A DNA stretch of 37,560 bases, from assembly GCA_013822855.1 (NCBI GenBank), contig PNLE01000014.1, positions 1-37,560 of the forward strand. Reading direction: 5' to 3'. This document shows positions 9,262-26,300 of the stretch, piece by piece (the first letter of the stretch is position 1; each line of letters opens with the position of its first letter). The position numbers were made by a program, and so were the translations under genes. The notes under the pieces were generated by a model. The model searched no databases. It was not told where the DNA came from and worked only from the letters and a program-made list of their open reading frames with translations. This DNA comes from Planctomyces sp. (GTDB taxonomy: Bacteria > Planctomycetota > Planctomycetia > Planctomycetales > Planctomycetaceae).

Positions 9262-10767
9262 ATGGCGGGTCACAACTTGAAGGCCAATGTCCTGTTCACC
9301 TGGATCGCCCATATGGCGGCCCTGGTGACGGGCTTCTTTTTGATGCCCTACGTCATGCGCGTCCTGGGGGATGCGTCGTACGGGCAGTGGGTCTTCATCA
9401 ATTCGTTCGTTGCCTATGGCGGCCTGCTCTATATGGGGATGGGCGAGACCATCTGCCGCTACGTTTCCAAGTACCACGGCGAGGGGGATTCCACCAAGCT
9501 CAACGAGGTGGTGACGATCGTTGCCTCGGTCTATGCGGTGGGGGCCACGTTCGCGTTCCTGCTCTCCGTGGGCATCGCCCTCCTGTTGCCGTGGATCAGC
9601 CCATGGACGGGTGACGAACTGCTGGAGATCCAGTGGGTCGTCGTGATCCTGGGCCTCAACCTCTCCCTGTCGCTCCTGGGAAGCATTTACGGCGGCGTGC
9701 TGATGGGCGTCCGCCGGTTCGATCTCGAGCGAACGGTGGGGATCGTCTTCGATCTCGTCCGCGTGGGACTGATCATCGTCTTCCTCCATCGCGAGTGGGG
9801 CCTGTTGACGATGGCCCTCATCTACATGGTGATCACGGTCCTCGAGAATGGAGCATTCATGTTCCTGGCGTGGCGGGCACTGCCGGAACTGCAGATCACC
9901 CGCAAGCACTGGAAATATTCCGTCCTCAAGGAATGCACGTCGTTCAGTTCGATGGCACTCCTCAACAACTTCGCTCAAAGCCTGATCTACGCGACAGATA
10001 GCATTGTCATCGGCTTCCTGATGGGGGCGGAGGCGATCGTGCCGTACTATATCGCACTGCGGCTGGTGCAGTTCATCCGCCAGCCGATCGAGAAGGTGGC
10101 GTTCATCTGCATGCCGACAGCGGGGGCGATGCAAAGCTCGGCGGATCGCGGGAAGCTGCATAAGCTATTCATGCAGGCGATTGGAGTGACGTTCCTGCTC
10201 GCCACGGGAATCAACCTGGGGGCCTACTTCTTCGGTGGCGATCTGATCGCGCTGTGGGTCGGTCCCGGCTATGAGGAATCGCACCGGTTGCTGGTGATCC
10301 TGCTTGTCGCGACGATCATCACGTTGCCGTGCAACCTGCTGAGATCGTTCCTGCTGGCACAGGGGACGATCCGCTTCCCGGCGATGATCTACTTCGCCGA
10401 GGCGGTGGCGAATCTGGTGATCAGCCTGGCCTTGGGGTGGACAATGGGCCGCGTGGGGGTGGCGATCGGCACGCTGGTTCCGGCCGTGGTGCTGGAGGGA
10501 GCTGTGCTGCTGCCCGTGGGTCTGTCGATCCTGGGGATCTCGTGGGTGCGGTTGATACGGGAAGCGATCCGGCCGCAACTGGCCCCTTTGGCCGCATTGG
10601 CCGGCTATTGCCTGCTGGTCAGTCCGCAGCCGTGGGCGCATGGCAGCTGGCTGGCACTGGTGGGCGTGAGTGCCGGTGGTGGCGCGGTGCTGGGGATCGC
10701 CTGGCTCCTGGTCCACAATCCGCCAGGGAACTGGTGGCCGGGGATGGTACGGCGGCAAGAGGCGTAG
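9262..10767 (+). CDS. Polysaccharide flippase-like membrane protein (Wzx/MATE-type)
   Basis: The product is about 501 residues from ATG 9262; GAAGG is 13-14 nt upstream, so the start is approximate, and an in-frame extension to 9163 is not membrane-like. The start 'KANVLFTWIAHMAALVTGFFLMPYVMRVLGDASYGQWVFINSF' is typical of the polysaccharide transporter (PST) flippases, and 12-14 hydrophobic helices follow. The family moves lipid-linked saccharides across the cytoplasmic membrane for capsule, O-antigen or exopolysaccharide. There are no glycosyltransferases nearby, so it is not in a visible polysaccharide cluster. It converges with the kinase gene; only 58 nt separate the two stops. Confidence 0.85.
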   Translation: MAGHNLKANVLFTWIAHMAALVTGFFLMPYVMRVLGDASYGQWVFINSFVAYGGLLYMGMGETICRYVSKYHGEGDSTKLNEVVTIVASVYAVGATFAFLLSVGIALLLPWISPWTGDELLEIQWVVVILGLNLSLSLLGSIYGGVLMGVRRFDLERTVGIVFDLVRVGLIIVFLHREWGLLTMALIYMVITVLENGAFMFLAWRALPELQITRKHWKYSVLKECTSFSSMALLNNFAQSLIYATDSIVIGFLMGAEAIVPYYIALRLVQFIRQPIEKVAFICMPTAGAMQSSADRGKLHKLFMQAIGVTFLLATGINLGAYFFGGDLIALWVGPGYEESHRLLVILLVATIITLPCNLLRSFLLAQGTIRFPAMIYFAEAVANLVISLALGWTMGRVGVAIGTLVPAVVLEGAVLLPVGLSILGISWVRLIREAIRPQLAPLAALAGYCLLVSPQPWAHGSWLALVGVSAGGGAVLGIAWLLVHNPPGNWWPGMVRRQEA

Positions 10768-10825
10768 GGGGATGGGGCAGTTGTTGGTTGATGGTTGGGT
10801 CGCTGATGGGGTTGGAATCAGCCGG

Positions 10826-12502
10826 TCAGGGCTTTTCTGTTGAGCGTGTTTCGCTGAGGAGGCTCTCGGCTTGTGAGACCCAGTTGGCGGCGGAGGGGTC
10901 GTCCTGGTAGAGGGTCACGATTCCTTGCCAGATGGTGCGGGCCTGGTCGAGCTGGCCGATGGTGCGCAGCCGCTCAGCTCGTTCGAGCGAGGTGACGACG
11001 AACGCGTCGCGTTCGGCCCGCGAGACCTGCTGCCGCTCGAGGTCTTCGATCTGGTTGTTGACGATGGTCTTGAGCACCTCGTACTGGCCGTTCCCCTCCA
11101 AGAGCGTGCGGAGGGCTTCGAACGTTCGGCGGGCGGCGGGGACATCTCCGGCATCGAGCTGCGATCGAGCCAGCCTCAACAGACGCTCGGGTTCCGAAGC
11201 GGGGGGTTCGACGCGATCCCTGCGTCTGGAAGGCAGAATGGTCGACTCAATCTGGTAGACCTCGATCTTTTGCAGGTACGGCTCCACCTGATCGCGCCAG
11301 CGGACGGGATCGGATTGCAACAACGGAATGAGATACTGGTCGCGGGCACGGAACCAGGCGGGGCCGGGCGGGCCTTCCAGCAGGTCCTTGGCGTTGGCGA
11401 ACTGTTCCTCGGGCTCGATCCCCGTGGTGAGGAACAGATAGATCCCCGAGCCGGTGACAGCCAGGAACAGCAACAGCAGCACATAGGTGTTGTTGAGCAG
11501 CCGGGCGATGGGCCCCTGCTTGTTCTGGCGGTCGACCTCGGCCCGGACAAGATCGCGGACGAACGTGGGGCCCAGTTCAATGGGTGGGGAGTCGCCGTCC
11601 AGGCCAATCGAGGGCTGGGTCGAGCCACCATCGGCGGCGTGGGGCGTGGTGGCTCCCGGCCCGCCGCCCGCCTCGTTGCGGTATTCGATCTTCCTTTGGA
11701 TCTCCTGAAGCTTCTTTCCCAGCACATAGGCGTCGGGCGGTCGTTTGGAAGGATCCTTCTCCAAGAGCTGGCAGACGAGATCGTCGATCCAGATCGGCAG
11801 CTCGGGGAGGAATGAACGGGGCTTGTCGAACTGGCCGAAGCGGTGCTTGTTGAGAACCTCCGCCGCACCGTTGCCGCTGAACGGGGGGCGGCCGACGAGC
11901 ATCACATAGAAGACCGCCCCCAGCGAATAAAGGTCGCTGCGGCGCGACGACCGCGCTCCCTGGGCCTGCTCGGGCGACATGTACTCGGCGGTGCCGATGA
12001 CGCCGCCGGTGGCTGTGAGCTTCCCCCCCGCGAAGACCTGGGCCACGCCGAAGTCGGTCAGTTTGACCTTGCCATCCGGCGTGAGCAGCAGGTTCGAGGG
12101 TTTGAGGTCGCGGTGGATGATGCCCGCGTCGTGGGCGGCCTTCAGCGCGCCACAGATCAGGATCCCCAGCGACAGGACTTCCCGCCAGGGGATGCGCTTC
12201 TCCCGCTTGAGGCGCTGGGTGAGCGTTTCCCCTTCCACATATTCCATGGCGTAGAAGTGGGTGTCGCGGTCGGCACCGCTGCCGTACAGGCGGACGATCT
12301 GCGGATGGTTGAGCGTGCGGAGGACTTCGATCTCGCGATGGAAGCGGGCGACGAAGCCGTCTTCGCGGGCGAGCGAGGCGGGAAGCTCCTTGACGGCGGC
12401 GAAGGCACCGGTGGTTTCGTCCCGTCCGAGATAGACGTTCCCCATGCCGCCGGAACCGAGTTGCCGTTCAATGATGTAGTTGCCAATGCGGTCGGGAAGC
12501 AT
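10826..12502 (-). CDS. Membrane-anchored Ser/Thr protein kinase (Hanks type)
   Basis: The product is 558 residues from ATG 12502, directly before the kinase domain. An upstream in-frame ATG at 12646 would add a Pro/Thr/His-rich low-complexity tail encoded by GT-rich repeats. All kinase landmarks are present: glycine loop 'LGSGGMGNVY' (15-24), Lys38, HRDLKPSN (130-137), DFG (150-152), 'GTAEYMSPEQ' (170-179) and 'SDLYSLG'. A Pro/Gly/Ser linker (~278-330) leads to one membrane helix (~340-358), then a ~200-residue C-terminal domain with helical, TPR-like repeats ('ARSQLDAGDVPAARRTFEAL', 'ERAERLRTIGQLDQARTIW'). It probably phosphorylates cytosolic targets and senses through the extracytoplasmic part. 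There is no Shine-Dalgarno before 12502. Confidence 0.92.
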   Translation of the reverse strand: MLPDRIGNYIIERQLGSGGMGNVYLGRDETTGAFAAVKELPASLAREDGFVARFHREIEVLRTLNHPQIVRLYGSGADRDTHFYAMEYVEGETLTQRLKREKRIPWREVLSLGILICGALKAAHDAGIIHRDLKPSNLLLTPDGKVKLTDFGVAQVFAGGKLTATGGVIGTAEYMSPEQAQGARSSRRSDLYSLGAVFYVMLVGRPPFSGNGAAEVLNKHRFGQFDKPRSFLPELPIWIDDLVCQLLEKDPSKRPPDAYVLGKKLQEIQRKIEYRNEAGGGPGATTPHAADGGSTQPSIGLDGDSPPIELGPTFVRDLVRAEVDRQNKQGPIARLLNNTYVLLLLFLAVTGSGIYLFLTTGIEPEEQFANAKDLLEGPPGPAWFRARDQYLIPLLQSDPVRWRDQVEPYLQKIEVYQIESTILPSRRRDRVEPPASEPERLLRLARSQLDAGDVPAARRTFEALRTLLEGNGQYEVLKTIVNNQIEDLERQQVSRAERDAFVVTSLERAERLRTIGQLDQARTIWQGIVTLYQDDPSAANWVSQAESLLSETRSTEKP

Positions 12503-12877
12503 CGGGGGTGTTGTGGGTTGATGGTTGTGGGTTGGGAGTGGTGAAGAGACGGGCGATGTAATGGAAGCCGCAGGCGATGGGTGGGTGTGAGACGTTTTCC
12601 CTGTGAGGCGTTTTCTCGGTCTCTCGCGAGCCTCTCCATTCAGCATAGCCGTGTCGGAGAGGGAAAGTCGTTGGAAAATCGGGGGGCGGCGCGGGTGCGA
12701 TTGTGCTCTGCGGGTCGAAGCGCGTTAGACTTCCGTAAGGTTGACGGGCCGGGCGACAGTGCCCCACCCGCATCCCAGCCCGATGGATCCCTTCCAAGAT
12801 CCGACATCGGTGGCCCGGCCTGCTTGGCCTGGGTGACAGATCGATCAGACCTTCGACACACAACAGGAGTTGCGTGA
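12503..12877. other. Divergent promoter region with a REP-like element
   Basis: This region lies between the kinase (-) and pyrophosphatase (+). It holds a GT-rich repeat tract (12508-12540), one copy of a GGTGGCCCGGCC repeat (12809-12837), and AGGAG before the pyrophosphatase start. No extra gene is seen. Confidence 0.55.
12809..12837 (+). repeat. REP-like element, copy A
   Basis: GGTGGCCCGGCC is followed by TGCTT and GGCCTGGGTG, a self-complementary unit. It is related to the two copies at 23081-23110 and 23266-23297, sharing the GGTGGCCCGGCC arm and a CTT-containing loop. Confidence 0.6.
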
Positions 12878-13435
12878 ATGACTCACGCCTGGCACGACGT
12901 GACACCCGGCGAAGACCTTCCCTCCGAATTCACGGCGGTCATCGAGATCCCGCGCGGTTCGAGCGTGAAGTACGAACTCGACAAGGAGACGGGGATGCTG
13001 CGGCTCGACCGCATGCTCCACTCCGCCGTCTACTATCCCGCCAACTACGGGTTCATCCCCCAGACGATGGCCGAGGACGACGACCCGCTCGACGTGCTGG
13101 TGATGTGCCAGGAGCCGGTCGATCCCCTCACCCTCGTCGAGGCGCGGGCCATCGGACTGATGACGATGATCGATTGCGGCAAGCGGGATCACAAGATCCT
13201 CGCCGTCGCCACGCACGACCCCGAGTTCAACTCGTTCCACGAAGCCAGCGAACTGCCGCCCCACCGGCTGGCGATGATCCGCCGCTTCTTCCAGGACTAC
13301 AAAATGCTGGAAGGGAAGCAGGTTGAAGTGGACGACCTGACGAGCGCGGAGACCTGCTTCCCGATCATTCGCGAAGCCCTCGAGCGCTACAGCCTCGAGC
13401 GCCGCCGCGGCTTCAAGGATCCGAAATTGTCGTGA
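12878..13435 (+). CDS. ppa: Inorganic pyrophosphatase, family I
   Basis: This 185-residue cytosolic enzyme hydrolyses pyrophosphate to two phosphates and so pulls biosynthetic reactions forward. It has the family I fold signals: 'AVIEIPRGSSVKYELDKETGML' near the start, 'YPANYGFIPQT' (53-63), the acidic metal-binding signature 'EDDDPLDVLV' (66-75), and 'DHKILAVATHDP' with 'KxLExK'-type 'KMLEGKQVEV' toward the end. The length is normal for bacterial hexameric enzymes. AGGAG lies 9 nt before the ATG. It is transcribed away from the kinase and followed, after 135 nt, by the phosphodiesterase gene on the same strand. Confidence 0.97.
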   Translation: MTHAWHDVTPGEDLPSEFTAVIEIPRGSSVKYELDKETGMLRLDRMLHSAVYYPANYGFIPQTMAEDDDPLDVLVMCQEPVDPLTLVEARAIGLMTMIDCGKRDHKILAVATHDPEFNSFHEASELPPHRLAMIRRFFQDYKMLEGKQVEVDDLTSAETCFPIIREALERYSLERRRGFKDPKLS

Positions 13436-13570
13436 GGAGGGGAATCGCCGGGATGAAGATTTGATGAGTCCGGCGGCGGCAGGCGGCTCTCCAGAACGTG
13501 GAATGTTATTCTGCGGAATCGGGCGAATCGAGCTGTCTGCTGGTGATTCCATCTTCTGCCGAGGTGATGC

Positions 13571-14425
13571 GTGTTGAACAGGCTTTCGCGAGTTGCGGGC
13601 GTTTGTGGTCTGGCCGGTCTCTTGGGCTGTGGTTCGATGATGGGGTGGAGTGTGGCCGCCGATCAGCCTGCGAGTCGCAAGGTCGAGATTGTCGCCCACC
13701 GGGGAGCCTCCCACGACGCGCCGGAAAACACGCTCCCCGCCATTGAGCTGGGATGGGAGCAGGGGGCCGATGTCGTCGAGATCGACGTCTATCTTTCCAA
13801 AGACGGCGAAGTCGTGCTGCTCCACGACAAGACGACCAAGCGAACTACCGGCGTCGACAAACCGATTGCGGACCAGACTTGGGCCGAGTTGTCGACCCAG
13901 GACGCAGGGGCTTGGAAAGCCGCCAAGTACGCCGGGACGAAGCTCCCTCGCTTGGCCGATGCCCTGGCCACCATTCCCGCCGGCAAGCGGATGCTGGTGG
14001 AAGTCAAATGCGGCCCCGAGATCGTGCCGCACCTGAAACGCGAGTTCGCCAAATCGGGCCAGCCGGTCGAGTCCATTGTGGTGATCTGCTTCCAGGAAGC
14101 GGTCTGCGCGGCCGTCCGCAAGGAACTGCCGGAGCACAAGGCTTACTATCTGGCGAGCCTCAAGCAGGAGAAGTCGACCGGCGAGTGGCTGCCGACCGCC
14201 GCGTCGATCATCGCGACGGCGAAGGAACTTGGCGTGCAGGGAGTCGATCTTTCCGCCTGTGAAGCGATCGACGAGTCTTTCGTGAAGCAGGTGAAAGCCG
14301 CCAGCCTGGAGATGCATGTCTGGACGGTCGACAAGCCCGAAGTGGCCCGCGCGATGCAAGCCGCCGGCGTCGACAGCATCACCACCAACCGGCCCGCCTA
14401 TTTGCGGCAAGCCTTGGCGAAGTAG
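13571..14425 (+). CDS. Glycerophosphodiester phosphodiesterase family protein (exported)
   Basis: The product is 284 residues with a GTG start at 13571; GAGG is about 6-7 nt upstream, and a TTG one codon later is an alternative. The N-terminus is a signal sequence with 'GLLGC' at 16-20, a possible lipobox. The GDPD core is intact: 'AHRG' (His43, Arg44), 'ENT' (52-54), 'VEIDV' (Glu70, Asp72), 'LLHD' (His85), 'EVK' in the middle and 'WTVDKPEVARAMQAAGVDSITTNRP' at the C-terminus. The family cleaves glycerophosphodiesters to glycerol-3-phosphate and an alcohol. The likely location is the periplasm, membrane-anchored if the Cys is lipidated. Confidence 0.93.
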   Translation: MLNRLSRVAGVCGLAGLLGCGSMMGWSVAADQPASRKVEIVAHRGASHDAPENTLPAIELGWEQGADVVEIDVYLSKDGEVVLLHDKTTKRTTGVDKPIADQTWAELSTQDAGAWKAAKYAGTKLPRLADALATIPAGKRMLVEVKCGPEIVPHLKREFAKSGQPVESIVVICFQEAVCAAVRKELPEHKAYYLASLKQEKSTGEWLPTAASIIATAKELGVQGVDLSACEAIDESFVKQVKAASLEMHVWTVDKPEVARAMQAAGVDSITTNRPAYLRQALAK

Positions 14426-18945: not shown

Positions 18946-20130
18946 TCAAATCGCCGCGCTGGGTTCGGCTTCCAGGATGGGGTTGCCAGCACTCGCCACC
19001 GCTTCCCGGGGAAGATGGATGGTAAACGTCGTCCCGTCCTCGGCGGTGGAGGTCACTTCTATCCGACCATGATGCGATCGGACGACTTCCCGGGTGATGT
19101 ACAGGCCCATGCCGATGCTGCTGGTCCGCTCGGCCTGGGGACTTTCCGCCGTCGAGCCACGAACCAGGGGATCGAAGATCAGGGAAAGTTCCTCCTCCGG
19201 GATCGGGATGCCGCCGTTGTGAACTTCGATGACGACCCCCGTCGCCTCGCCGCGAAGTGACAGCGTGATGGGGATTTCCGCCAGGCCATGCTGCACGGCG
19301 TTCCCCAGCAGGTTCGAGATCGCCTGCCGGATCCGGTCGTGATCCCATTTGCCATGCAGATCGCCGTACGTCAGTAGTTCGATCCGGTGTTGGGGATGGG
19401 AGACGCGGCACTCCTTCACCAGTTCAGCCCCCAGCACCGCCAGATCCATCAGCACCGGCTTGACGGGCATGCCGGCCCCCAACCGGGTGCGGGTGTAATC
19501 CAGCAGGTCGTTGATCATCCGCTGCATCACATCGGCGCTCTGCGTGATCGTCGCCGCGCACTCGACCACCTCGGCCCGGTCATGGCTGATCAACGGCAGC
19601 ACTTCGGCCGACATCGTGATCGCGCTCAGCGGATTGCGCAGGTCGTGGCTGAGGATCGCCAGGAACATATCGCGGGCCTGATCCACCCGTGTGGTGTAGC
19701 TGGCCACCGATTTCGAGAGGGACTGGTCGATCGATTCGTTGAAGCGCGTCAGATCGTCGATGTCCTGCGTGTGGGGTTGGTGGCCGCTGTCACGCCAGAG
19801 CTGGATCACGCCGGCCCGGAGGGCGCGATACTCGCTCATCATCTCGAGCATGTCGAAGCCCAGGCTCAGGCGGTCGACGGCATGGGCGTCCGACGCACCG
19901 TCGAGCTCCTCGCTCTCCACCTCCGGCGACTCCCCCTTGGACTTCTCAGCCCGTTCGGCGACGGTTTGCGGCGATTTCATGTCCCGTGCGGTGGCGCCCA
20001 GAATCAGTTTGACATGATCCTGCAGGCGCAACTTGTCCAGATGCTCCCCCGACCGGGTGCTCCGCGCGAACACCTCCCATCCGGCCACAATGGGCTCCAT
20101 GTGGGAAAGAATGAAGTCGGCGAGACGCAT
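18946..20130 (-). CDS. Sensor histidine kinase with RsbRD-like N-terminal domain
   Basis: The product has 394 residues; ATG 20130 is preceded by GGAG at 6-7 nt. The N-terminus 'RLADFILSHMEPIVAGWEVFARS' is the opening of an RsbRD_N-type globular sensor domain (residues ~1-150), known from sigma-B stressosome proteins and many soluble histidine kinases. The phospho-acceptor box 'LAILSHDLRNPLSAITMSAE' places the His at 162. The ATPase domain has an N box 'ISNLLGNAVQHG', a G1-like 'VHNGGIPIP' (His replaces the usual Asp) and G2 'IGMGLYITREVVRSHHG'. There are no membrane helices, so it is a cytosolic sensor. No response regulator is adjacent, making it an orphan kinase. Confidence 0.92.
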   Translation of the reverse strand: MRLADFILSHMEPIVAGWEVFARSTRSGEHLDKLRLQDHVKLILGATARDMKSPQTVAERAEKSKGESPEVESEELDGASDAHAVDRLSLGFDMLEMMSEYRALRAGVIQLWRDSGHQPHTQDIDDLTRFNESIDQSLSKSVASYTTRVDQARDMFLAILSHDLRNPLSAITMSAEVLPLISHDRAEVVECAATITQSADVMQRMINDLLDYTRTRLGAGMPVKPVLMDLAVLGAELVKECRVSHPQHRIELLTYGDLHGKWDHDRIRQAISNLLGNAVQHGLAEIPITLSLRGEATGVVIEVHNGGIPIPEEELSLIFDPLVRGSTAESPQAERTSSIGMGLYITREVVRSHHGRIEVTSTAEDGTTFTIHLPREAVASAGNPILEAEPSAAI

Positions 20131-20651
20131 GAGTCACTCCGGTGAAGGGCCACGAAAAGTCGCCTGGGCCGACCGGTCTACTCTGCGTACCCCCTCCACA
20201 GTACACCACAGGGAAAAACTTCACAGCGGAAACTTCGCTGGGGAGGATTCCACGGGTGGAATCCGAGAGTGCAGCAAACGGCACTTCGGACGAATCACTC
20301 TCCATCCCTCATGGTCGCCGTTTTGATTCGACGCGGATTCAAGGTTCGGCCTCGATTCGGAATAACCGACCGCGATTCACACACCGGGGCATCATTACCT
20401 GCGAGCAGCTCAACCAGCTGGCGCCCCACCGACTGACAGCCGCCACCTCAACGAGGGGAGCTAGACGGTTTCTACGCCCCGGGATCCGCAGGTCACCGCC
20501 CACTACATCACCACAAAGCGGATGTATGAGATTCACCTCGGGCTGAAATCAGACCCGGTGGCTACCGCATCGTGACTTACCTATCTTCACCTATCAAGGG
20601 AGCCTCCCACAAGTTAAGCCGCTCTGTGGACCCCGAAGCGGGCGGCACCTT
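20131..20651. other. Intergenic region, one palindrome, no gene
   Basis: The sequence upstream of the histidine kinase holds a perfect palindrome (20245-20264) but no credible coding frame. It forms the left part of the accessory stretch that extends to 23.3 kb. Confidence 0.45.
20245..20264. repeat. Palindrome of the ATTCCAC family
   Basis: GGATTCCAC-GG-GTGGAATCC is a perfect dyad with a 2-nt centre. The ATTCCAC core recurs in palindromes at 20844, 22400 and 22553. Confidence 0.55.
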
Positions 20652-20843: not shown

Positions 20844-20861
20844 TGATTCCACGCGGAATCA
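20844..20861. repeat. Palindrome left of the PIN module
   Basis: TGATTCC-ACGC-GGAATCA is a perfect 7-bp dyad. It matches the site at 22553-22570 in 17 of 18 positions and in the same orientation, and the two flank the PIN module. Confidence 0.6.
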
Positions 20862-20983
20862 GAATTACGCCAGATATAACAAAGAGGTGACGGCGGGGCT
20901 GCCCGAACAACGCCGTCCGCCCAGTGGGCGGGCAGTGCAACTCAGATCCGAGGTACGAACGGAAAGCGATTCGGAACACGAAG

Positions 20984-21463
20984 CTAAAAGAGCGTCTCAG
21001 CCTTTGGAATATCCAGAGCTTCAATTAACGAAGTGGCCATATTCCTGCATCTCTTGTCATGCGTGTAGAACTTTTTCGCTCCAACACCATGAATGGACGC
21101 AATAATCATCGCATCGGCCTTCACAACTTTGCGATCAGACGATTTCAAAGACTCGATAAGTTGTTCGTTCTCGCGACATATCTTTGCGGCATTGGCAGCA
21201 GCGCGAATGTCAAACTCGGCACAGATGAAGCGTTTGGCAAATTCCTGCGTCAGTGATGGGTGTTGATTCACAGGTACGCGCTGAAGGATCTCGGCAATGC
21301 TAATCGTGGAGATTGCTAACTGATGATTATCCTGAAGGATCCGATCGATCAGCGAAATTGCGCGTCGTTTCAACAATACGAAATCTGGATTGTCCTTGTT
21401 TTCAGCGATAACCGGCGCGAGACCAGCATAGATGATCACCATGGAATCAATACCAACGATCAT
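20984..21463 (-). CDS. PIN-domain ribonuclease-like protein (VapC type)
   Basis: This 159-residue protein has the conserved acidic set of PIN nucleases: Asp6 ('GIDSMVIIY'), Glu58 ('STISIAEIL'), Asp117 ('KADAMIIASI') and Asp136 ('YTHDKR'). These coordinate Mg2+/Mn2+ for RNA cleavage. Length and order of motifs match VapC-like toxins. Its ATG overlaps the stop of the upstream 268-residue gene (ATGA, 21460-21463), so the two are translationally coupled. In classical VapBC the upstream gene is a short antitoxin; here it is long and of a different type. The DNA is AT-richer than flanking genes. Confidence 0.88.
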   Translation of the reverse strand: MIVGIDSMVIIYAGLAPVIAENKDNPDFVLLKRRAISLIDRILQDNHQLAISTISIAEILQRVPVNQHPSLTQEFAKRFICAEFDIRAAANAAKICRENEQLIESLKSSDRKVVKADAMIIASIHGVGAKKFYTHDKRCRNMATSLIEALDIPKAETLF

Positions 21464-22266
21464 TCACGCTCTCCATGAATGACTGTTTCCGGACTCTCGA
21501 CTTTGTCCCAGGCCGAAAGACCGGCTCGACGGAGTGCCGCGATAGCCTCATGCGCTTTGCCAAACTGCGGTTGTGTGAATGAGGTGATTTCGAACGACAC
21601 TAGACGACCGGATCCCTGGATCCATTGAGATGTGCCTTTGGCGTGAATGCTCTCATAAAGGCGTTTTCCCAATTCTTGAGCAATTTCGCGGCTCTTTATG
21701 GAGCAGTAGAGCAGGGGCTTTCGATTGGACACGCGGAGAACGCATTTCATACCCGACGCACCACCGACGCGTTCGATTCGTCCGTAGATGCTGGATTCAC
21801 CTGTCATGAGAATTCGCTTCTCGATGTCGCCATATTCGTGCCCACTGATCACGAACAACGGATGACGAATCTGTCCGGGGACGGAGACTTCCATCTTCCA
21901 ACCGTGGGACTTTGACACTTCGCTCAGGCTGCGAATAGCCGGGAGAATTGCTTCGATGTCGTCCGTACTCGTTTCCCAATCGTCCTCTTCACCTGAGATC
22001 AAGTAATTCACACGACTCAGATTGCGAATCGCCTGTTCGGGATTTCGGGCACTACAAAGGTAGATCGCAGATCCCTTCTTCACGTCCACGAGGCCGATGG
22101 AACTCTCTGGATCCACGCGTGTGGACTCAAAAGGATTGCGACCACTGGCAAGATCCTGAACTGCGCTAAGCACATCGCTCACTGCGCGCAAAGGCACCTT
22201 CTCTGGAGACACACCAGGACCGACAAAGCGGACTTGGAATGTCACGGGTGGGCGATCTTTGACCAT
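21460..22266 (-). CDS. PIN-associated protein of unknown function
   Basis: The product is 268 residues from ATG 22266. This start is supported by AAGG 9-10 nt upstream and by a promoter at 22307-22335; the in-frame ATG at 22362 would lie upstream of that promoter. The N-terminal part reads 'VTFQVRFVGPGVSPEKVPLRAVSDVLSAVQDLASG', followed by a strand with 'IGLVDVKKGSAIYLC'. The C-terminal part contains 'SIYGRIERVGG', 'LLYCSIKSREIAQELGKRLYESIHAKGTSQW' and 'LVSFEITSF', which looks like two small beta domains. I recall similar uncharacterised proteins next to PIN genes, but this is memory, not a search. It could be an antitoxin or a targeting partner of the nuclease. Confidence 0.8.
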   Translation of the reverse strand: MVKDRPPVTFQVRFVGPGVSPEKVPLRAVSDVLSAVQDLASGRNPFESTRVDPESSIGLVDVKKGSAIYLCSARNPEQAIRNLSRVNYLISGEEDDWETSTDDIEAILPAIRSLSEVSKSHGWKMEVSVPGQIRHPLFVISGHEYGDIEKRILMTGESSIYGRIERVGGASGMKCVLRVSNRKPLLYCSIKSREIAQELGKRLYESIHAKGTSQWIQGSGRLVSFEITSFTQPQFGKAHEAIAALRRAGLSAWDKVESPETVIHGERE

Positions 22267-22306
22267 CACAATTGCCTTAGAAGACACTGCCGAGCGTACG
22301 CCACCA

Positions 22307-22335
22307 ACAATAGCGCACAGGAGAACACGTGTCAA
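22307..22335 (-). promoter_or_regulatory. Sigma70-like promoter of the PIN module
   Basis: On the minus strand there is TTGACA (22335-22330), a 17-nt spacer, and TATTGT (22312-22307). The -35 is a full match and the -10 a good one. The predicted start near 22300 gives a leader of about 34 nt to ATG 22266. Confidence 0.7.
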
Positions 22336-22399
22336 TCGGAAGCCAGATCCACCGGCTAACATCTCCTACGATAAGGGTATTCGACCGGCCGGGGAAACA

Positions 22400-22426
22400 T
22401 TCATTCCACCATCTTGGTGGAATGAA
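22400..22426. repeat. Perfect 11-bp inverted repeat upstream of the PIN module
   Basis: TTCATTCCACC (22400-22410) and GGTGGAATGAA (22416-22426) are separated by ATCTT. It lies about 65 nt upstream of the PIN-module -35. It may be an operator or one more member of the ATTCCAC palindrome family. Confidence 0.6.
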
Positions 22427-22552
22427 CGTCGTATCCCGACGGTGAGTTCCACGCGTAACCCGGTCGACAAGATGGTCGGCTCGGTAAAGTATGACTCACT
22501 TCAGTATGTGAAGCCCTTTGGGCGTGGAGAATCCGAGCCATTTTGTGACTTC

Positions 22553-22570
22553 TGATTCCACGCGAAATCA
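22553..22570. repeat. Palindrome right of the PIN module
   Basis: TGATTCCACGCGAAATCA differs by one base from the site at 20844-20861, in direct orientation, about 1.7 kb away. The two copies bracket the PIN module and its promoter. Confidence 0.6.
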
Positions 22571-22808
22571 GTTTGGGCTTGCGCGGCAGTTCCGCCAGCG
22601 GTAACAGCGAGGGACGTCACGAAAAAGGTGGCGACGGGACGGCGCGAACAGCCCCGCTGCCGATATCACCGCCAGCTTGGATGTTCTCTTTTGGGTACCC
22701 CAATGACTGCGCGTGGCCACGGGATCAGCGGTTTTGGCATGTGGAGGTCACGCGGAAGACTGTCCGATTGCCTTTGGGGACTTGCAACGCCTGATCCCGC
22801 TTCGGGCG

Positions 22809-22934: not shown

Positions 22935-22984
22935 TTAGGTCGGATCTACTCGATCTTTGGTTCCTACTCTTCCGCCCTGCGATA

Positions 22985-23071
22985 TGTCGCACCCATCGAC
23001 ACGTCAAGAAAACGTGTCGATTTTTTCGTGTTTTTTCGACACGTTCTGAGAACGTGTCGTTGGGAGCGACA
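22985..23071. repeat. Nested inverted repeat with two identical inner dyads
   Basis: Two 36-nt arms (22985-23020 and 23036-23071) are inverse complements at about 29 of 36 positions, around a T-rich 15-nt centre. Each arm itself contains the dyad CGACACGT-N7-ACGTGTCG (22997-23019 and 23037-23059). The second dyad is complementary across all 11 bases of each half. The outer ends are TGTCGC and GCGACA. Confidence 0.75.
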
Positions 23072-23080
23072 TGTTCATGG

Positions 23081-23110
23081 GGGTGGCCCGGCCAGCTTGA
23101 GGCCGGGTCG
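23081..23110 (+). repeat. REP-like element, copy B
   Basis: GGTGGCCCGGCC, AGCTTGA and GGCCGGGT form a 7-bp stem hairpin. It shares arm and loop with copies A (12809) and C (23266). Confidence 0.65.
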
Positions 23111-23265
23111 CAAAGCGACAAGACGCCGCGCCCTGCTCGTGACCCGCTTCAAGAGCGGAGGCTTGGTTATGGGTGCTCAGATCATCCAGCAATTACGATT
23201 GCCAAAGCATATGGCGCGGAAGGCACGGCTTCTTCTGGCGGTGGCTACCAGTTGTCGTCAACACA

Positions 23266-23297
23266 GGCCACCCGGCCACAAGTTGGCCGGGCCACCC
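23266..23297 (-). repeat. REP-like element, copy C (inverted relative to B)
   Basis: The reverse complement reads GGTGGCCCGGCCAACTTG followed by TGGCCGGGT. It has an 8-bp stem around a 5-nt loop. Together with copy B it forms a facing pair about 155 nt apart. Confidence 0.65.
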
Positions 23298-23332: not shown

Positions 23333-26300
23333 TCAGCCCGCGCGGCGGGTTTGGGTTTCCAGGCGGGAGAGCCAGACGGGTTCCACGCCCCGCGATTGGA
23401 ACTGTTCCGCAAAGCTCATGTGGCTGGTGAAGACCAGCACTTGCTGGCCGGTCGAGGCGAAGTCGATCAGGGTGTCGACGGCGGCTCCCGAGCGCTGTTC
23501 GTCGAAGTTGACGGTGACATCGTCGAGGATCATCGGCAGTTCGATGTTCTTCGCCGTGAACCGGCGGACCATGGCCAGCCGGATGGCGAGGAAGAGCTGT
23601 TCGCGCGTGCCGCCGGAGAGCATCTGGACGGGCCAGGGGTGCTGGCGGTCGTCGTCGACGCAAAGGGCGTGCTGTCCGAGGGGTGTCCAGATGTTGGGAT
23701 ACTGCCCGCAGGTGAGCCGCGAGAGGAACGGCGACGCCTCGGCCAGAAGTTGCGGCTGGTTGGTCCGCTCGAACCGCTGGCGGAGTTCATCCATGCTCTG
23801 ACCCGCCAAGGCCGCGGCGTACCAGTCTTCCAGGCCATGCCGCATCTGCTGTTCGATCGTCGCCAGTTCCAGCCGGCGGGTGATGCCGGTGGTGTCGGCT
23901 TCGAGGGTGCGGGTCTCCTGCTTCACACTCCCCAGCTCTTCATAGAGCCGCTTGAGATCCTGCTCGATGACGGCCAGTTCCTTCGTCAGTTCGCTGATCC
24001 GCTGGTCGTTGTGGGTGCGGTTGAACTTGCGGAGGACATCTTCCGTGATCGCCAGCGTGGGCTGCGACTGGACGGCTTGCTCGAGATCGTGCTGGGCCTG
24101 CTCGAGGCGGAGTTCCCACTCCCGCCGCTTCTCCCAGGTGCGGATGCGATCCATGAGCCCTTGGCGGTCGCGGACACCGGCGGCACTGAGGAGGGCCGTG
24201 CGGTCGAGGTGATTCTGTTCGAGCTGTCGATCCAGCCGGAAGCGGATCTCCTGCCGACGTTCGAGGATGCGATCAAGCTTGCGTTTGGCTTTGCGTTTGA
24301 CGAGGGCGGTTTCGAGTTCGCCGCGCCAGCCTTCGAGCAGGTTCCACGGCTGCGACGTCGTGGTGAAGGGCCGCTGCATCCGCTTGGCGAGGGTTTCGAC
24401 CTGCTGGCGGAAGCCCTGCTGCTGGGCCTGAACCTGTTGCAGCCTGGCACCCAGATCTCGCGAGGTGGCCAGGAGGGCGAAGGCTCCGTGGACCTTCTCC
24501 CACAGGTTGTAGGCGTTGCCGATGGAGGTTGTTTCGTCGAGGCCCAGACCGACGAGTTTGCGGCTCCATTCATGCCGGGCCTGAGCCAGTTCGCGCTGGC
24601 CTTCCTGCAAGCGCTTGCGGGCCGTGCTGAGCGATTTGCGGACGCGGCGGATCTCCTGGAACTGCCGCTGGAGCTTTTCGAGATCGGCCAGCCGCGCCGC
24701 CGCCTGGGCGATAAGGCCGCCATCGTTGGCGCCGTTCATCCATTGGGCAAGCTCGGCGGCGTCCATCAGGTCGTGCCTGCTGGCCAGCTCGCGCATCTGC
24801 TCGCGGGCGTCGTGCAGCTTCACCTGATAGTCGCGGCGGCTTTCACGGATCGCGCGGACCTGGTCTTCGGCATCACGCTCGAACTGAACCTTCAAGCCAT
24901 ACGAGAGGCTGATGGCCATCGCACCGATGAGAGCGTAGATCGTGCCGACGAGGACACCCGTCGTCACTGAGGAAAGTGCTCCCCAGAAGACAAGTCCGAC
25001 ACCGGCCGCGAGGAACAGGAAGAGCAGCGTGAAGATCCAGGGGGGCATCGTCGAGCGGACCTGGATCCGTTCGAGCTGTTTTTCCAGTTCGCGGATCCGT
25101 TCGAGATGTTCCCCCGCCGCGATCTGCAGGCGGCCCAGTTCCACGACATGGGCCAACCGCTCCCGGGCGAAGTGAAGCGGCTCTTCGACCGTTTCGCTTT
25201 GAATCCCCAGTTCGAGCAGGTTGGTCTTGAGGGCCAGTTCGCGGTCGTGGCAGACGCTCGACTTCTTCTGATAGCGGTGCTGCCGCAAGGCCTGCCGGGA
25301 GCGGATGTCTTGATAGGTCCGCGCCGAGCCGAGCAGTTCGGCCTGCGTGGCGGGAGTATCGATGATTTCGCCCAGCCGCTGACGTGTCCAGCGGGGGCCG
25401 AGTTCCTTGAGGCGGCGGCCCAGGTCTTGTTCGGCGGTGGAGAGTTCCTGCTCGAGCCGCAGCCGGTCCGCGTCGCGGGTCTGCCAGGGAGTCTTCTGAT
25501 CCCACAGCGCATGGAGGCTGGGGCCGTAGCGGCCGAAGTCGGCCAACTTGCGGGCCGCCTTGAGTTTTTCGTCCATCGCATCAACGCGTGTGCGGGCTTC
25601 GGCCCGCTGCTGGCCAAGGGTGGCGATGGCCGTTTCGATGCGGTCGAGCTGCGAGATGGTGTCGGGCGCGATCGCCTTGAGTTCGGGCAGGCCGCTGAGT
25701 TCGCGCTGACACTGATTGACCAGCCGCCACGGTTCCCAGACGCGCTGGAGATGCCGGGCTTCCAGCAGCGAAGCCTGGATGTTCGTCTGGCGGTGAGTGA
25801 GATCGGCCTGGCGCGTCGCGAGTTCCTCCCGCTTGCGGAGGAGCTCGCGGTGTCGACCCAGGCGGACACCTTCGGCCTCGTTGAGCGCGCGGAGACGTGT
25901 TCGCTGCTGCGTGAGATCCAGCAGACGGCCCGACATCGCCATCGGGTTGCGGATGGCCCGCTGATAGGCCTCCAGCTTCGGCACGGCATCCTGCAACTGG
26001 CGGCCCTGCGGCCCGAGCGTCATCGCATAGATATGGCGGGCGACAACTTCATCTTCCAGTGTGCCGAGCTGTTGAAGTTCGGGCAGACCGAGGGCGAAGA
26101 CCGATTGGAACAGCCGGGCATCGAGATGGCCGACGATCTCCTCGTAGAGAGATTTGCCGGTGCCGTTGGCATCGAGGCCATCGATGGTGAGCCGGCCGGG
26201 ATCGGCTTCGAGCGTGGCCATGCGATGGAGGTGATGCGTGCGGCCCTGGTGCTGCACAACCAGCGAGCCTTCGCGGCTGAAGCGGTCGCGCCAGCGCTCG

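Follow-up and report, generated by a model that had tools for sequence, protein, structure and literature searches.

A PIN-domain gene and a long partner of no named family form an obligate overlapping pair in planctomycetes

PIN toxins are among the commonest prokaryotic toxins, and the antitoxins known to control them are small DNA-binding proteins. A VapC-type PIN protein carrying four acidic residues is a metal-dependent RNase, which often acts on tRNA or rRNA. The partners of PIN genes named in the main text of the survey by Makarova (2009) comprise AbrB, RHH, PHD, COG2442, COG2880, COG1753, MerR, Xre and COG2856-Xre (PMC2701414), and the order in which the antitoxin gene comes first is given as the commonest toxin-antitoxin layout in the main text on TASmania (PMC6504116). 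Restriction-modification units, another kind of self-contained addictive pair, are said to insert with long target duplications of variable length in the sections of that work considered here (PMC3031569).

The gene pair investigated in this study is located on the minus strand of a window of 37,560 nucleotides, which denotes the whole stretch of DNA that was analysed and corresponds to contig 14 in the 309-contig assembly of a planctomycete genome. Its first gene, the proposed antitoxin or regulator, encodes a partner protein of 268 residues (21460..22266, with its ATG at 22266 and its stop at 21460) and is followed by a gene for a PIN-domain nuclease of 159 residues, the proposed RNase toxin (20984..21463). 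As the initial annotation had described, stop and start of the two genes share the sequence ATGA, a 4-nt overlap at 21460..21463, which makes translational coupling of the two proteins likely. An AAGG motif resembling a ribosome-binding site is found at 22275..22278 of the same strand, 8 nt upstream of the partner ATG. An alternative partner frame of 300 residues starting at 22362 is unlikely, since homologues align from the start of the 268-residue protein and since the extra stretch would contain a promoter-like site. This sigma-70-like site, TTGACA-17-TATTGT (22307..22335, minus strand), had been proposed as a clean promoter and is indeed present with 10 of 12 consensus positions, but as 1.6 such sites are expected by chance per shuffled region, the consensus match alone does not constitute evidence. 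Further upstream in the window, a 15-nt inverted repeat with a 3-nt loop (22397-22429, 93%) possibly serves as an operator or terminator, as judged from its sequence.

The arrangement found in the window recurs in other genomes. When about 700 planctomycete genomes were searched by profile, 14 further intact homologues of the partner were recovered (L004, L005, L006, L007, L008, L009, L015 to L021 and L075), which share about 15-45% identity with the window protein, and in each of the 14 a PIN gene is located directly downstream on the same strand, although its frame is broken in the assembly of L015. At the junctions, the two genes overlap by up to 7 nt or lie up to 28 nt apart, the 4-nt overlap being the commonest (7 of the 13 compared). 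The reverse relationship was examined with phrog_21691, a PIN profile built independently by others from phage proteins, which at a cut-off of E 1e-5 matched 9 of 297 genomes; all nine matches were PIN proteins of the module. The partner and PIN genes are thus obligately paired and overlap, the partner gene being the first of the two, which bears out the expectation of a recurrent, undescribed module and contradicts the outcome named in advance as speaking against it, that homologues would never lie beside PIN genes. The identity matrices of the two proteins are correlated (r 0.59, Mantel p 0.0002), showing that both travel together, which by itself is no proof of binding. At one locus, L076, a degenerate remnant of the partner with four in-frame stops was observed, and no PIN gene was found there.

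With respect to function, we consider it probable that the pair is a mobile addiction module working like a type II toxin-antitoxin pair, in which a PIN RNase is held in check by a long, non-canonical antitoxin. Given that the partner gene lies upstream, in strict pairing, within a unit that is mobile, patchy and self-contained, its simplest assignment would be that of the antitoxin.

The partner belongs to a protein family without name or assigned function. Its members measure 251-297 residues as read, with about 260 being typical, and exceed the usual antitoxins of PIN proteins two- to fourfold in size. Ser 66 is invariant, and Pro 21, Leu 59, Gly 65, Gly 168, Gly 169, Gly 211 and Phe 225 are nearly so. 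Searches of Pfam, NCBIfam and PADLOC yielded no credible match to the partner, searches of PDB sequences returned chance-level matches only, and none of the enzyme families, whose detection would have spoken against the original proposal, was matched. Two isolated scores, to Pfam 2_5_RNA_ligase2 (one member, E 0.14) and to NCBIfam LAPAL (two members, 3.8e-5), were rejected because neither is common to the family. The predicted absence of AbrB, RHH and Phd patterns was likewise borne out, as no such domain, nor an HTH or other VapB-type domain, was found by profile in any of 14 partners (NCBIfam and PADLOC; Pfam for the first seven). This result bears on the view that the locus is an ordinary VapBC system whose antitoxin was enlarged by fusing its DNA-binding domain to an extra domain. 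Although its PIN toxin, gene order and overlap are all as in VapBC, the missing VapB-type domain leaves this explanation with only a very slight chance of being correct.

AlphaFold predictions of the partner from two sequences only reached a pLDDT of 38 and 35. The C-terminal half is basic in several members and, in these low-confidence models, may follow a beta-beta-beta-alpha-beta-beta order resembling an OB fold; within the toxin-antitoxin interpretation, we would guess that it might bind RNA. In a separate interpretation, the partner would be the RNA-binding subunit of a dedicated processing pair, delivering a specific RNA to the PIN protein for a housekeeping or regulatory cut. The possible OB-like strand order and the basic character of the C-terminal half in 7 of 13 members would be consistent with such a role, but the same half is acidic in the others, and the patchy distribution and the insertion as a mobile unit described below would be unexpected for a housekeeping activity, so that we regard it as highly unlikely.

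Returning to the toxin-antitoxin interpretation, the PIN protein retains its metal-binding acids and may be an active RNase. The four acidic residues initially noted as intact are present in the window protein (Asp 6, Glu 58, Asp 117 and Asp 136); the first three are invariant in 14 PIN proteins of the module and the fourth is an aspartate in most, with a shifted Asp or Glu in two. These residues have been kept although the proteins are only about 20-40% identical. The profile PF01850 matches six of the first seven module PINs, and VapC15 (4chg) shows a weak match, reflecting a weak similarity to VapC overall. The module PINs constitute a subfamily of their own. A profile built from them leaves canonical PINs in the same genome undetected.

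The module is found in about 2% of the sampled planctomycete genomes (>700) and is absent from all three genomes of the same genus, and its presence is thus sporadic. An all-phyla genome scan, conducted with one degenerate pattern only, found one planctomycete, and relatives could be searched for effectively within Planctomycetota only. A connection to phages emerged from the PHROGs, where phrog_19868 matches 11 of 14 partners (best 1.1e-11; window partner 2.4e-8) and phrog_21691 matches all five module PINs tested (window PIN 2.1e-9), which implies that the phages or prophages underlying these profiles contain relatives of both genes. Both families resemble the module proteins by profile, and neither has a function assigned in PHROGs. 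Their source phages were not located in a phage collection by tblastn or in IMG/VR scans with these queries, and sequence searches of IMG/VR, phages and plasmids yielded no credible relatives.

A second pronounced feature of the pair concerns its mobility, which had been suspected from an AT-rich composition. The module is AT-rich in a relative sense only, with a GC content of 51.0% compared with 61.9% in each flank, and the suspicion of mobility gains support from repeats on both sides and from an empty site. In 4 of 15 loci the module is bracketed by direct repeats, 19, 21, 25 and 84 bp in length, which enclose 1690 bp in the window (19-bp repeat with one mismatch), 1383 bp in L051 (21 bp, exact), 1470 bp in L061 (25 bp, exact) and 1433 bp in L053 (84 bp, 94%). 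The bounded stretches contain just the two genes, and neither a transposase nor an integrase is found inside the unit. In control intervals of equal size from the same loci, repeats were detected in 11 of 3771, at two distinct sites, a comparison that is indicative only because the intervals overlap. The left repeat of the window, TGATTCCACGCGGAATCAG (20844..20862, plus strand), is near-palindromic and its right counterpart, TGATTCCACGCGAAATCAG (22553..22571, plus strand), is identical in 18 of 19 positions. No other copies of its 17-nt core were found in its own genome with up to one mismatch, and a third, weaker copy is located at 20324. This weaker copy and the near-palindromic character make the window repeat the least certain of the four. 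A reading of the window repeats as integron attC sites was dropped, as no RYYYAAC/GTTRRRY core was recognised by eye.

An empty site was observed for L053, where the 3' end of the upstream gene, which we take to be DUF1015-like, is duplicated to give the repeat. In relatives of the genome G257 (G176, G298, G246 and G160), the corresponding site holds a single 84-bp copy and no module, and the DUF1015-like gene is there followed by the same convergent gene, presumably TatD-like. The pair is compositionally foreign and, in at least one relative, its two genes were inserted together and the target was duplicated. As an alternative for L053, an integrase supplied in trans that acts on 3' gene ends might account for the repeat. 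At the window locus, genomes of the same genus align only up to the stop of yhaN at 23333. Between the module and this gene we observed long inverted repeats at 22984-23072 and 23081-23297 (37 nt, 81%; 31 nt, 90%). Positions 18946-20130 encode a histidine kinase with a weakly RsbRD-like N-terminus, whose best same-genus counterpart is about 31% identical.

The surroundings of the module bear on its main rival interpretation, an anti-phage system in which the partner would sense infection through a phage protein or nucleic acid and, instead of only inhibiting the PIN protein, activate it to cleave RNA or DNA, resulting in abortive infection. Several copies have type I and type ISP restriction genes, TIR, IS1, resolvase and BRO-N genes as neighbours, and this proximity to restriction, TIR and phage-like genes, the long multi-segment partner and the relationship of both genes to phage protein families would be in line with such a function. 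Conversely, the copies in the window, L051 and L053 lie among housekeeping genes, the overlap with the first gene in antitoxin position is typical of toxin-antitoxin pairs, and the known anti-phage profiles of PADLOC gave no match (best 0.022, in a single member). We therefore regard a sensor-effector system as unlikely, with the qualification that many toxin-antitoxin pairs have a role in defence, so that both interpretations overlap. Within individual neighbourhoods, the module of L061 (4642-8669) adjoins a type I hsdR gene, of which 25 bp of the start are duplicated beyond the module; L055 harbours a canonical PIN gene (13653-14072) and a type ISP restriction-modification gene (9912-13526) within 5 kb of the module; and in L058 and L060 a similar small coiled-coil or winged-helix-like gene and IS1-type transposase sequence are found nearby.

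Collectively, we count in favour of a toxin-antitoxin pair the pairing in both directions (14/14 and 9/9), the correlated identity matrices, the gene order with the antitoxin in front, the retained acids, the sporadic presence, the repeats, the empty site and the neighbours, and against it the size of the partner, the lack of a profile-detectable DNA-binding domain, the weak similarity to VapC, the defence-type neighbours and the failure of the module-PIN profile to detect canonical PINs of the same genome. In the mechanism that we envisage, the long partner would bind the PIN protein and keep it inactive. Its loss or inactivation, for example upon loss of the locus or phage infection, would free the nuclease, which by analogy to VapC toxins would cut cellular RNA, probably tRNA or rRNA. 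Since the partner contains no recognisable DNA-binding domain, autoregulation of the VapB kind may be absent, and control would probably proceed through protein binding. More tentatively, and with some doubt on our side, the pair could represent a new toxin-antitoxin class, in which a PIN RNase is controlled by a large antitoxin that has a new fold and lacks a DNA-binding domain, and in which the two genes spread alone, as a unit of about 1.4 kb that inserts with target duplications of variable length (19-84 bp) and carries no recombinase. A much larger, strictly paired partner of no named family would add a new mode of control for PIN toxins, and the bracketing repeats and the empty site make it possible to test how a two-gene module can move without encoding a transposase, a question that has stood since such movement was proposed for restriction-modification units.

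In comparison to described systems, the module resembles VapBC in its PIN fold as detected by profile, its conserved acids, its upstream partner in overlapping or adjacent order and its mobility, and it shares strict two-gene pairing and mobility with type II toxin-antitoxin pairs. It differs in its partner of 251-297 residues devoid of an AbrB, RHH, Phd or HTH domain, in place of a short DNA-binding antitoxin. It is thus not VapBC proper, in agreement with the initial annotation, and may still work like VapBC. The partners in the main text of the PIN survey are likewise recurrent neighbours, whose role as antitoxins was proposed through guilt by association, yet none is a family of about 260 residues without DNA-binding domain (PMC2701414), and such a partner is absent from the passages considered of this survey, TASmania and NetFlax (PMC2701414, PMC6504116, PMC10440598). 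As in restriction-modification units, in the sections considered (PMC3031569), we find a self-contained and presumably addictive pair that is flanked by direct repeats differing in length, contains no transposase and has a one-copy empty site in relatives. The module is distinguished from these units by its different enzymes, and its repeats of 19-84 bp were observed at only 4 of 15 loci, with an empty site at a single one, L053.
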